Source: Mayamaea pseudoterrestris
Taxonomy: Eukaryota; Bacillariophyta; Bacillariophyceae; Sellaphorales; Sellaphoraceae
DNA: 64,000 nucleotides
Direction: 5' to 3'
NCBI GenBank assembly: GCA_027923505.1
Contig: BROI01000004.1
Span: 868,001-932,000, forward strand
Under the pieces are notes generated by a model that was not told the origin of the DNA, did not search any database, and was given only the letters and a program-made list of their open reading frames with translations. Below, in pieces: positions 51,898 to 56,857 of this stretch. The translations under genes and the position numbers were made by a program. The number at the start of each line of letters is the position of its first letter. Positions within the stretch are counted from its first letter, which is position 1.

Positions 51898-53142
51898 ATG
51901 GCGTTCATCCTCAAAACGAGTCATTCATTTCGCTCCATCATTTCCACCATGTCCGACTCTAGCGGCTCTGAATCACTTCCACTTCCCAATGGATGGAGCA
52001 AGGGATTTTCCAAGTCGCAGAATCGTCCATTCTACTTTCATGAAGCGACAAAGACGACGCAGTGGCACTTTCCGACGGCTTCCGAAGCGCTCGATCCTAG
52101 TAAAGCCAAGCAGCGCGTCCAAGCGAACATTGAACGAGAGGAAAGCAAGAGAAAACAGCAAGGAAACAATAATAGTCATGATGGAAAGCGACTGCGCGTT
52201 GAAACTAGCGGTGACTCTTCGTTGTTTGATCTCGCCGATAAAACCAACGTTGCAATCATTGTCCCTTTTCGAGACTTGCATACAGAGCAAAAGCGGTCGG
52301 CACACTTGAAACAATTCGTTCCACACATGCATTCATTCTTGGCAAAACTTAAAGCATCTGGCAAAGTCTCCAACTATCACATTTACATCATTGAACAATC
52401 CGACGATCAACGCAAATTCAATCGAGGCAAGCTCCTCAACATTGGTTTTGATTTGGCGCGCAAGGCGCAGCGCAAGCACGACGTTTTCATTTTTCACGAC
52501 GTTGACTTGTTGCCGCAAAATGACTTGCTCGTTTGGTACAGCAAGTTTCCAGTCAAGCCGCTACACATTGCTCGCGTCTGGGATCGCTACTCGAACAATC
52601 CAAAATACTTTGGAGGCGTCGTTAGCTTTTCGGCGAGTGACTACAAGCGAATCAACGGATATCCCAATACTGTGAGTATACGAGTGATGGCTTGTCGTTT
52701 TGTGACTACAGGCAGCAGTAATCAATCATGTCACGTCGAAATTTAAGGTACTCACAGCAATTGCAATCTACCACGTTTGACATGACCACAGTTTTGGGGC
52801 TGGGGCGGCGAGGACGATGAAATGCAGCGACGACTCGAGCGGCTGGGCATTCAGTTTGACATGCCTGACAAGGGCACGCTTGTCGACTTGGAGCAAATGG
52901 ATTTGACGCAAAAGCTGGCCTTTTTGCGCGAGCACAAGTCGTGGAAGTGCATGGTCAAGTGGGAGGCGGCCGATGAGCACGCCGCAACGTGGAAGACGAA
53001 TGGTTTAGCGGATCTTCAGTATCAGCTACTGGAAACAAGGCCGTTGAATGAGCAAAAAACTGCCACCATGTATATGGTTGATGTGCAACTCAATGGCACT
53101 CATTGGGCGAACGACAAGGCTGGAGTTGACTGGGTGGGGTAG
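51898..53142 (+). CDS. WW-domain beta-1,4-galactosyltransferase-like protein (GT7)
   Basis: Two exons, 51898-52671 and 52792-53142, encode 374 residues (phase 0 intron). The start at 51898 lies in GCCACCATGG; a second ATG is at 51949. A WW domain occupies about residues 26-58 (LPNGWSKGFSKSQNRPFYF ... TTQWHFP). After a charged linker comes a GT7-like glycosyltransferase domain: NVAIIVPFRDLHTEQKR, RGKLLNIGFDLA, the metal-binding DVD in IFHDVDLLPQND, FGGVVSFSASDYKRINGYPN, then FWGWGGEDDEMQRRL across the intron. The catalytic motifs are complete. There is no clear ER signal or membrane anchor, unlike Golgi galactosyltransferases, so the location is open. The N-terminal extension could be a weak targeting peptide. 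Confidence 0.85.
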
Positions 53143-53313
53143 GCGGGCGCCGAATGGATCACTGAAACACTACTAATAGATGCGAGGGCTGTTTTGTCGC
53201 CAAAGGCGTTTGATGCACAAAGCCACATTTTTTGTACTGAATCAATAGTATTGTAAAATAATGCTATGTGTTGAAATTACTGCTCGAAAACTAATATTGT
53301 ACTTGATCCGTGT

Positions 53314-53329
53314 GCCATTGAGAAATGGC
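53314..53329 (-). terminator. Histone-type 3' stem-loop of H2A
   Basis: On the minus strand the sequence GCCATTTCTCAATGGC forms a perfect 6-bp stem with a 4-nt loop (TCTC), 37 nt after the H2A stop. Its shape equals the replication-dependent histone mRNA 3' hairpin that binds SLBP. A matching hairpin follows H2B. It is preceded by ACC and followed by ACAC, exactly as at the H2B site. Confidence 0.75.
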
Positions 53330-53365
53330 GGTTATTTATTATGTTTTGGTCGTCTCTTGATGAGC

Positions 53366-53938
53366 TTAGTAGTCCTGCGACTGACTCTTGCCACCCTTTG
53401 CTCCAGCAATGGCCTTTCCAGTGCTCTTAGGCAACAAGATTTGGTGAATACTAGGGAGCACTCCACCCGATGCAATGGTTACGCTGCCGAGGAGCTTGTT
53501 GAGCTCCTCGTCGTTCTTGATCGCCAATGTTAGGTGGCGGGGAACGATGCGTGACTTCTTGTTGTCGCGAGCGGCGTTGCCAGCAAGCTCCAGGATCTCG
53601 GCGCACAAGTACTCGAGGACAGCAGCGAGGTAGACGGGAGCGCCAGCACCCATGCGGGTGGCGTACTTGCCCTGGCGCAAGTAGCGGCCGATACGACCGA
53701 CGGGGAACTGCAATCCTGCCTTGCTTGACGAAGTCGTCGACTTCTTCTCTCCACGGCCTCCCTTGCCCTTTCCCTTGCCTCCGGTAGTTGCTGCTGTATC
53801 AAGAGGAAGACGTAAATGGTAAGATATTCTGTTCGGTGTCAAGCGCTCGCGTATTTTTGTCGACTTGTCGTTCGACTCAATCATTCACTTGGATAAACTC
53901 GTTCCTTCATTCAGACATCACTTACCCTTTCCGCTCAT
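53366..53938 (-). CDS. Histone H2A (H2A.X-type C-terminus)
   Basis: Two exons on the minus strand, 53926-53938 and 53366-53793, encode 146 residues. The 13-nt first exon (MSGK plus one base) joins in phase 1 to [13 protein letters not shown]. The histone fold is complete: [60 protein letters not shown], and [20 protein letters not shown]. The end, SQSQDY, carries the S-Q-(D/E)-aromatic motif that DNA-damage kinases phosphorylate in H2A.X. It is divergently paired with H2B, 390 bp between starts, and followed by a histone stem-loop. The pairing and hairpin point to S-phase expression. Whether the organism has another H2A without the SQ motif cannot be seen here. Confidence 0.97.
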
Positions 53939-54328
53939 GTTGATAGTGGTTTCGTAGTTGGTGAGTGTGTAATCGTTTGCGTCTGCGATGCTTTTTGTGA
54001 GAGAATCCCATGTTGGAGAGGATGGACGAGGCCGAAACCTTCAGGACTACTTTAGCTTCTCGGGTTCGAAACGGACGAGCCAAAAGCCGACTTACTTAAG
54101 CCCAGCTCCCATGCGAGCGAGCCAGGATCTTGAAACGTTCGAAATCAATGACATTCTTTAGCCTTTTATCTGAAAGTAAGTGGGTTTTGTACCATGATCC
54201 ATTGGTAAGTTTTGCACGTAGAAATCTGTTCGTCGTGACATTTCGACCTTACCCACAAAAAGCAGCAGCATCCAAGCCTCTTCGCATCCTCTCATCCAAC
54301 TACCAAAACAAACCACCAACTCGCAACC
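53939..54328. promoter_or_regulatory. Divergent H2A/H2B promoter region
   Basis: 390 bp between the two histone start codons. The head-to-head arrangement is the classic one for co-regulated H2A/H2B pairs. I see no certain named element in it, so the promoter role is inferred from layout. Confidence 0.5.
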
Positions 54329-54688
54329 ATGGCAAAGACACCATCCAAGCAATCCGCCAAGGCACCCAAGAAGGCTGGCGAGACCAAGAAGCGTAACAAG
54401 CGTACCGAATCGTACAGCTCCTACATCTACAAGGTCTTGAAGCAGGTCCACCCTGACACTGGTATCTCCAAGAAGGGCATGTCCATCATGAACTCGTTCA
54501 TTAATGACATTTTTGAGCGCATTGCCGGAGAGGCTGGCAAGCTTGCCACCTACAATAAGAAGGCGACGCTCAGCAGCCGCGAGATCCAGACGGCAGTCCG
54601 CCTCATGCTCCCCGGTGAGCTTGCCAAGCATGCTGTCAGTGAAGGTACCAAGGCAGTCACCAAGTTCTCGTCCAATACAAGCTCGTAA
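54329..54688 (+). CDS. Histone H2B
   Basis: Single exon, 119 residues. The Lys/Ala/Pro-rich tail ([18 protein letters not shown]) leads into the histone fold: [78 protein letters not shown], and TKAVTKFSS. Length and core are canonical. The lysine in AVTKFSS is the usual monoubiquitination site of H2B (human K120, yeast K123). It pairs head-to-head with H2A and is followed by a histone stem-loop. Confidence 0.98.
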
Positions 54689-55536
54689 ATACGCTTGATT
54701 CGCAACATTTACAGCAACAAACCGCCATTTTTCAATGGCACACTTGAAATAGAACGAACCACACTATTCGATACACTAAAATGAATTTAATTAGCAACAA
54801 TTGAAATACGTACAAGTTATATCTTTACAAGTATGCTATAAAGAGCGCAGTTGTCAAGGTTTCTGGCGACAAGACAGGCAATTATGATAGCACCATTGCC
54901 CCTGTCCAGCATTCCCATGGTGCGCATCGAGCAAGCGATCTGACCGGTTCTCGTTTCGTGTCTCACCAAGAATGACGAAATTCTTCGTCACAAATCGCGG
55001 TTCAAACGCTCCTTCGCAACTTATCGGTAAAGTACGAAAAACAACTTAGTTGATCTATCTCCCAGGTGCGCCTGTGATACAAGACGAGAGTCCAGCTCCA
55101 CGGTCTTTACGTACTGTTCATAGTTACATCGTAGTCGTACATTGCATTGCACAAGCGAATACCAGTTGTAGTCACACACGACGCAGTACGGTTCACAATC
55201 TACCGGATCGCCAAATACAACCCATTCTCACCATGATTGAGTCAAACTAAAGACTATTCGCACCCATTATTAGAAATTCCACAACAAAATGACGTATAAG
55301 GCAACAAAGCCAAGTCGACACTGGCTGTTTGCTTGTCACTGGAGAAGGTGTTTCGCAACGTGACCACCACTTGCCAAATCATATATTATTGGTAGTCTTG
55401 TAGTATTAGTCTCGAAACAAGTTTTCTTTAACATTTCTAATTTATATTCTCTATATATGCAATTTATAAACACAAAAATGGGGACTGGATGCTGCGCTGG
55501 CGGCATAACTGGGTGCAAGTCGAAGCAGCTGCAGCA
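54689..55536. other. Convergent intergenic region, 848 bp
   Basis: After the H2B hairpin there is AT-rich sequence up to the 3' end of the trypsin gene. Short frames exist on both strands but none has recognisable content. I see no RNA gene. Confidence 0.5.
54724..54739 (+). terminator. Histone-type 3' stem-loop of H2B
   Basis: GCCATTTTTCAATGGC forms a 6-bp stem with a TTTC loop, 36 nt after the H2B stop. UUUC is the commonest loop of the metazoan histone hairpin. The stem is identical to that after H2A, and the spacing to the stop is nearly equal. It is preceded by ACC and followed by ACAC. Confidence 0.8.
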
Positions 55537-56857
55537 TTATGGCGTAAACGCCTTTCTTGCAGAGCGTCGAAACTTTCCTGAAAGAGTGACTAAGGATCTG
55601 CTGTCAGTTTTGATCTCAATAACGCTGTTGCCTTTGCCCTTCATGACAAGCTTGTGCTTGTGTCCTTTAATCAGTTGCAATGTAACCGACATGAACTTGT
55701 TCTTGGCAAAGTATGTTCGGGCAGGGTAATTGGCCACTCGCTTGCCTGTCACCGTATCGACAATGCTCCAGGACATGGGAATCGCATCGTACTGTACATT
55801 GACAGTCGCTGTCACGTACGTGTCGGACGACGGCGACTGCACCGGTGTTGTAACGTCGGCTCCTCCGTTGCACCAGCTTGGTGGTGTTGCACTCAAGGCG
55901 CAAACTTGCTGATTGATCCAGTCAGTGGCACCAGATACTCGTGCGTATACACCCTGTTGACGAGAAGGTAAAATTATTGTAAGAAATTGTTTTGGATAGT
56001 GGTGGGCACGTCAAGAAGGCTTCAAAGCACTTACCGGTCGGTTCGCTCGAGCGCAACCATCTCCCCAAGAGACAACACCAACCTGCAAGCCATCTGAGTC
56101 AAACAATGGGCCGCCCGAGTCACCCGAGCATGAGTCTTTTCCGCCCGTAAGTGGCCCAGCGCACATTTCAATCGCTGTGTTTCGAGGACCGTACGAAGCG
56201 TCGCAGGTCGCTGGGGCAATGTACGGAACCGTTACCTTGCGTAGGGCCGAAGTCAAGGAGGTACCGCCTTCAGACGTTACACCAAACCCACACACCTCCA
56301 GATCTTGGTTCACGGCGGGGTAGGCAGGGTCAGTATTCAGAGGCGAAGGCGTCTTGGTGGATGGTTCGATTCTGAAGACCATAAAGTCGTTGGTTGATTT
56401 AGTCGCATCATAGCTTGGATGTGCCTGCAACGGGCTTAGAATGTTGCGCCATTCACCACCTTGGTCGGTGCTCCCTAACTTCATGGCGCCAACGAGGACT
56501 CTGGCTCCAAAACCGCTTGCCTGAAAATGACAAAACATTGTGCGTTAGTTTACGGTGCTATGCGGTCAGCGCGGCATTGCCAATTACGGGATGCTGCTGC
56601 ACACTTACTTTGCAATGCGCCGCTGTGAGGACAATGTCCGTATGAATAAGGTTGCCTCCACAACCACCTCCCAACACGAATGAAGGAAAGTCACCTTGTG
56701 CGGCGAGTGAACCACCGACAATGAACGACTCTGTTTCGCGTCTTCTGAGGTTTTGGGTTAATGCAGCTGTCGTATTGGTTGGTACTCGCGCCGACGGCTG
56801 GTCAGCGGAGGTGCTCTGCACAAGGGCAGCAATGATGATCGAGGAAAGAAGCTTCAT
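55537..56857 (-). CDS. Secreted trypsin-like serine protease (S1) with C-terminal domain
   Basis: Three exons on the minus strand, 56609-56857, 56035-56520 and 55537-55953, encode 383 residues; both introns are phase 0. A signal peptide (MKLLSSIIIAALVQSTSA) precedes a short pro-region and the activation-like site FIVGGSLAAQ. The triad is complete: His81 in TAAHC, Asp128 in NDFMVF and Ser218 in DSCSGDSGGPLF. Asp212, six residues before the Ser, predicts trypsin-like cleavage after Lys/Arg. GVYARVSGATDWIN closes the peptidase domain. About 110 extra residues follow, with alternating hydrophobics (VTATVNVQYDAIPMSWSIVD), resembling a beta-sandwich found after diatom secreted proteins. The role of the extension is unknown. 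An extracellular or vacuolar protease is expected. Confidence 0.92.

Follow-up and report, generated by a model that had tools for sequence, protein, structure and literature searches.

A histone-type 3' stem-loop and a gene for its probable binding protein in a diatom genome

The closest described counterpart of the element studied here is the metazoan histone stem-loop with its binding protein SLBP (Rfam RF00032, Pfam PF15247), in which, by the animal rule, U occupies positions 1 and 3 of the loop. The system is known from green algae as well. A survey by Davila Lopez and Samuelsson, published in RNA in 2008, is said to have described histone stem-loops together with SLBP in protists and to place the origin of the system before that of animals. 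No report of a diatom histone stem-loop or SLBP stood among the literature matches listed, judged by titles and the opening lines of abstracts; the main 2008 survey lay outside this search, and we do not claim a first report. The passages returned from chromatin papers on a diatom, a stramenopile and a brown alga held no mention of a histone mRNA stem-loop.

Excerpts of published work place the stem-loop and SLBP in protozoa too (PMC12819152, PMC6723414); dinoflagellates are described there as having no such stem-loop and Perkinsus as having it (PMC6723414). The histone hairpin of C. elegans, according to the retrieved part of its description, has the loop CTTT or CTTA and is bound by the SLBP homologue CDL-1, the mRNAs ending past the hairpin (PMC1924863). 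In the excerpts on animals, SLBP is stated to require G at stem position 7, contacted by Arg181 in the sole base-specific contact (PMC10388802), and replicative histone genes are stated to be intronless (PMC7807067, PMC5636114).

Hairpins at histone genes in the window and in the genome

The window, by which we mean the whole 64-kb stretch of DNA that was analysed, contains two divergent histone genes (Table 1). The plus-strand gene encodes a protein recognized by Pfam as a core histone, and it was judged to be H2B by inspection of the sequence. The product of the minus-strand gene matches PF00125 and Histone_H2A_C and comprises 146 aa if the 13-nt first exon is joined to the second across the predicted intron. 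We call this gene H2A.X-like because the terminus of the protein, SQDY, fits the SQ-acidic-aromatic ending that we take to be the H2A.X-type motif. Both the intron and the H2A.X-like character are additions to the original prediction. The interval between the two start codons is presumably the promoter region. Other open reading frames in the window include one at 51898-52746 (+) that combines a WW domain with group-7 glycosyltransferase (galactosyltransferase) domains, a pairing that looks unusual, and is transcribed towards the H2A.X-like gene; a second one, at 56011-56538 (-), encodes a trypsin-family serine protease (101.5 bits).

Table 1. Coordinates of the two histone genes of the window and of their 3' elements
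Feature	Window position	Contig position	Strand	Basis
Extended element, AACC-stem-loop-AC, at the H2A.X-like gene	53312..53333	C4:921312-921333	-	genome pattern search
Histone-type stem-loop GCCATT-TCTC-AATGGC, 3' of the H2A.X-like gene	53314..53329		-	pattern search, folding
H2A.X-like gene, exon 2 with stop codon; protein end SQSQDY	53366..53793		-	ORF, Pfam
H2A.X-like gene, predicted GT-AG intron, 132 nt	53794..53925		-	predicted from sequence
H2A.X-like gene, exon 1 with start codon	53926..53938		-	predicted splicing
Interval separating the H2A.X-like and H2B start codons (divergent genes), 390 nt	53939..54328		.	coordinates
H2B gene, single open frame, 119 aa	54329..54688		+	ORF, Pfam
Extended element, AACC-stem-loop-AC, at H2B	54720..54741	C4:922720-922741	+	genome pattern search
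Histone-type stem-loop GCCATT-TTTC-AATGGC, 3' of H2B	54724..54739		+	pattern search, folding

The pattern GCCATTNNNNAATGGC occurs in the window exactly twice, once past each of the two genes; dinucleotide shuffles of the window yielded on average 0.02 matches, and two were reached in 0 of 100 shuffles. The original prediction of two hairpins on opposite strands, each with a 6-bp stem and a 4-nt loop (on the gene strand, TCTC at H2A and TTTC at H2B), was confirmed, these being the sole GCCATT-N4-AATGGC matches in the window. The same applies to their positions, the stem starting at the 37th nucleotide past the stop codon of H2A and at the 36th past that of H2B, and to the common ACC/ACAC flanks, given that AACC precedes and ACAC follows the hairpin in each copy. 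RNA folding returned both hairpins as drawn (-6.8 kcal/mol, z about -2.2), only modestly better than shuffled sequences, 5 and 7 of 200 of which equalled the respective hairpin.

The genome was searched as a 30.6-Mb assembly of 41 contigs. The flanked pattern AACC-GCCATT-N4-AATGGC-AC has exactly ten matches in it, all of them located just 3' of histone stop codons. With mismatches allowed, one more place was found with one mismatch (on C11, a contig without a histone match), none with two and 25 with three, which makes 36 in total versus 5 for the reversed pattern. The bare GCCATT-N4-AATGGC occurs at 16 places (versus 2 for the reversed pattern), histone genes being present at ten of them. The hosts of the exact element are distributed over six contigs: an H4 gene on C1, the H2A.X-like and H2B genes of the window, a divergent H3/H4 pair on C10, an H3 gene on C12, an H2A and an H2B gene on C19, a truncated H2A gene on C30, and one H1 gene (linker histone, PF00538). 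The original prediction called for a search near the stops of H2A, H2B, H3 and H4 genes, and the element was found at all four types and at H1 in addition. The survey of histone genes covered core histones, and the single H1 gene entered it through its hairpin. Gene names beyond those provided by Pfam were judged by eye, and six PF00125 matches (C36, C2:2767824, C8, C15, C9 and C24) were left out as resembling, again by eye, histone-fold transcription factors.

The stem and the AACC/AC flanks are invariant in the ten copies. The loop has the form U-N-U-(C/A), so that two of its four positions are variable. The gap between the stop codon and the stem ranges from 34 to 51 nt: 36 nt for the H2A.X-like gene, 35 nt for both H2B genes, 34 nt for H2A and for its truncated relative, 51 and 39 nt for the H3 genes, 42 and 46 nt for the H4 genes, and 48 nt for H1. 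The truncated H2A gene (C30:173994) kept the hairpin and the 3' flank of the C19 H2A gene. Both H3 genes have a common stretch, ACGAGCATACTACTGTAGCAATCCAT, at an equal distance of 21-46 nt past the hairpin, which may reflect either a recent duplication or an H3-specific signal.

Eight further histone genes were identified, namely, a second H4, an H2A.Z-like, an H2A-like and five H3-type genes. In regions of about 3 kb (about 1.5 kb either way), none of these eight loci has a hairpin of its own whose 6-bp stem is fully paired and begins with G and whose loop has the form T-N-T-N. Hairpin-free core histone genes, which the original prediction regarded as evidence against itself, do therefore exist; seven of the eight look by eye like variants, and the eighth, the second H4, counts against the prediction. 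One of the three H4 genes is thus hairpin-free, and the only hairpin nearby belongs to the neighbouring H4 gene. These tandem H4 genes (C1:1787358 and C1:1788542) are about 1.2 kb apart, have the same intron position and encode proteins with a one-residue difference. The hairpin is present at the downstream gene only, which makes them a natural pair for the comparison of two types of 3' ends.

Two eukaryotic histone clusters, L109 and L110, retrieved by a search for H4 in bacterial and archaeal genome records, were used as controls; L109 is animal-like by eye. L109 also contains U1, U2 and 5S RNA genes. The presence of such clusters in records named as bacteria points to contamination of these records. 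The control hairpins have the same architecture with paired changes in the stem, and G7-C20 is present in 9 of 9. Out of 19 hairpins from three lineages, 17 distinct ones were aligned, the truncated H2A copy and the H3 hairpin of L110 being dropped as identical rows. All 102 cells of this alignment are paired, and four of the six pairs are changed on both sides; slid controls pair at 13-43%. None of 500 shuffles equalled the observed covariation score or percentage of paired cells, while 45 of them reached as many doubly changed pairs and 90 as many pair types. The diatom stem is invariant within the genome, and the covariation, which comes from three lineages, supports a common architecture and is no measure of selection.

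Rfam model RF00032 (gathering score 34 bits) listed none of the ten diatom copies even at E up to 10; for the control hairpins it listed 9 of 9 with 26.9-37.5 bits, four of them above the cut-off. Applied to the window and the genome, it produced no match over the cut-off, and the four weak matches that it gave in the genome, where 75 of 3043 candidates were scored, are situated away from the histone genes found.

Viral contigs and phage records were searched as well. The pattern CCGCCATT-N4-AATGGCAC was found in 21 stretches of viral contigs; tblastn gave a histone match for 0 of the 21, and they were taken as chance occurrences. The search of viral contigs for H3 retrieved a single contig with distant, virus-like histones; its H2A-, H2B-, H3- and H4-like segments are divergent and lie near one another, which recalls the histones of giant viruses. 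Judged by eye, its 6-bp hairpins include none similar to the histone element. No relative was found in viral contigs with either the diatom SLBP or an alignment of three SLBP sequences, nor was H4 found in phage records.

SLBP and stem position 7

The SLBP RNA-binding domain (PF15247, cut-off 27) was detected at one locus in the genome, in agreement with the SLBP homologue expected in the original prediction. Exon 1 alone scores 67.4 bits; the exons joined over a predicted GT-AG intron score 83.5 bits and cover profile positions 3-70 of 70. When the protein was compared to those with solved structures, the best matches were named histone RNA hairpin-binding protein (E from 6.3e-14 to 1.9e-9): 4tux and its relatives, which we take to be fly SLBP, and 4l8r, presumably human SLBP. 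The genome also has ten matches to the silicon transporter family PF03842 (nine over the cut-off, the best with 659 bits) and therefore belongs to a diatom. This is consistent with the predicted secondary-plastid alga, the secondary plastid of diatoms being established knowledge.

In the animal numbering, the stem consists of the pairs G6-C21, C7-G20, C8-G19, A9-U18, U10-A17 and U11-A16. Position 7 is C, and the second pair C-G rather than G-C, in all ten diatom copies. In the diatom SLBP, Gly occupies the column of human Arg181, located by counting from Thr171 of the TPNK motif; in two programs the column is gap-free in alignments with the solved human and fly sequences. Thr-Pro of this motif is kept and Asn-Lys is changed, and an Arg is found one residue past the Gly (N-G-R-F). 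The Gly is encoded in exon 1, upstream of the intron, and hence the call is independent of the predicted splice. The original prediction is supported in part: the hairpin is histone-type, accompanies H1, H2A, H2B, H3 and H4 genes on six contigs and co-occurs with an SLBP gene, and the lack of a poly(A) tail stays a prediction. Neither the C at position 7, which breaks the animal rule, nor the Gly replacing Arg181 had been anticipated.

Judging from the two sequences, the G7-Arg181 contact appears to be lost in the RNA as well as in the protein, and recognition should therefore differ in detail from that in animals. We suggest, tentatively, that the diatom SLBP and its RNA gave up this contact jointly, the pair being flipped to C-G and Arg181 replaced, without a recognisable U7 snRNP. 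If true, this would be a case of natural altered specificity in an ancient pair of one protein and one RNA. With the contact gone, specificity would reside in the stem shape, in the loop uridines, in the flanks or in some other residue, for which the Arg next to the Gly is a candidate. There is also a fair chance that the flip of position 7 and the Arg181-to-Gly replacement are coincidental, or that the alignment is shifted by one residue and the contact is made by the neighbouring Arg. The immediate vicinity of Arg and Gly is in line with this explanation, as is the scope of the comparison, which covers one diatom genome and reference SLBPs of two types. On the other hand, neither program inserts a gap anywhere from the conserved TP to the conserved W, and G7 is kept in both control clusters, known here from their hairpins and not from their SLBPs.

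Formation of histone mRNA 3' ends

Given that the ten exact copies are all located at histone genes and that the genome encodes an SLBP domain, the hairpin is very likely the 3' stem-loop of replicative histone mRNAs, that is, the histone stem-loop/SLBP system in a diatom. SLBP would bind the hairpin and recruit a putative CPSF73-type cleavage machinery; the pre-mRNA would then be cut a few nucleotides past the stem without addition of poly(A), and the histone mRNA would accumulate mainly in S phase. We consider it probable that the histone mRNAs end in this way, at the hairpin and without poly(A).

Introns of 76-132 nt are predicted in four of the nine full-length hairpin genes (the H2A.X-like gene, both H3 genes and one H4). 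Both H2B genes, the C19 H2A and the other hairpin-bearing H4 read through without an intron; H1, open throughout, was assigned to neither group. The search for U7 snRNA, which is weak for divergent RNAs, gave no match over the cut-off (best 17.7 bits versus 34; 65 of 2982 first-look candidates scored). Downstream of the hairpin, no shared element was detected at eight of the ten loci (two near-duplicates were omitted), the best k-mer counts being within the range of 15 mononucleotide shuffles per word length, in a comparison likewise weak for divergent RNAs. Cleavage is left unexplained by U7 snRNA or a downstream motif, and the processing may be U7-free or involve a divergent U7.

The same two observations, the introns in four hairpin genes and the U7 snRNA and downstream element not found, would suit a real hairpin in mRNAs that are mainly polyadenylated downstream, with the role of the stem-loop limited to mRNA stability, to translation or to a minor isoform. 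In the excerpts at hand, human H2AFX yields both stem-loop and poly(A) mRNAs (PMC7807067), and Phaeodactylum H4 mRNA served as a qPCR reference (PMC4247016). We regard predominant polyadenylation as rather unlikely, since neither the stem nor the AACC/AC flanks vary among the 10 copies, which were found at histone genes only, as expected for the main 3' end signal, and since the element is common to H1 and all four core types.

Two other explanations of the element have a very low probability. A signal acting at the DNA level, e.g. a palindromic protein site, agrees with a palindrome that is identical on both strands save the loop, but it is hardly compatible with the asymmetric AACC/AC flanks, which follow the sense strand of the gene in 10 of 10 cases and on both genomic strands, nor with the narrow range of distances to the stop codon and the presence of SLBP. 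Least probable of all is a functionless relic of histone 3' ends that were duplicated or underwent gene conversion, as the likeness of the two H3 genes further downstream and the origin of the truncated C30 H2A as a copy of the C19 H2A 3' end are opposed by 3' regions of H1, H2A, H2B, H3 and H4 that otherwise differ and have no downstream motif in common, by variation at two of the four loop positions next to a constant stem and flanks, and by the retention of the SLBP gene.

Comparison with known systems

If the element is the histone stem-loop, an animal-type ending of histone mRNAs is hereby documented in a diatom at the scale of a whole assembly. The element may serve as a simple marker separating hairpin-bearing, probably replicative, histone genes from the others. 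It is missed by RF00032 and may have been overlooked in related algae. It would also provide a natural experiment on SLBP-RNA recognition, in that the contact which animal SLBP is described as requiring seems to be missing from the RNA as well as from the protein.

The diatom element resembles the metazoan one in the 6-bp stem, the 4-nt loop with its uridines, the A-rich 5' flank and the AC 3' flank, as well as in the short gap past the stop codon, the absence from other histone genes and the presence of SLBP. It differs from it in the C-G second pair instead of G-C, in Gly for Arg181 and in not being recognised by RF00032; moreover, in the diatom four hairpin genes have predicted introns, and U7 snRNA and the downstream element were not detected in the searches described above. 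With the protist stem-loops and SLBPs reportedly covered by Davila Lopez and Samuelsson in 2008 it shares the same idea, that of a stem-loop/SLBP pair older than animals. The system itself is known, and what sets the diatom case apart is that position 7 and Arg181 appear to be changed together, as observed in a single genome.

As far as the consulted part of the source goes, human H2AFX is likewise an H2A.X gene with a histone stem-loop, its dual 3' end being described for human cells (PMC7807067). In C. elegans, the hairpin is followed, according to the excerpt, by an AATCC element, which is conserved, and by a poly(A) signal, whereas no shared downstream k-mer was found at the eight diatom loci compared; like the diatom hairpin, that of C. 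elegans shows deviations of its own from the norm (PMC1924863).
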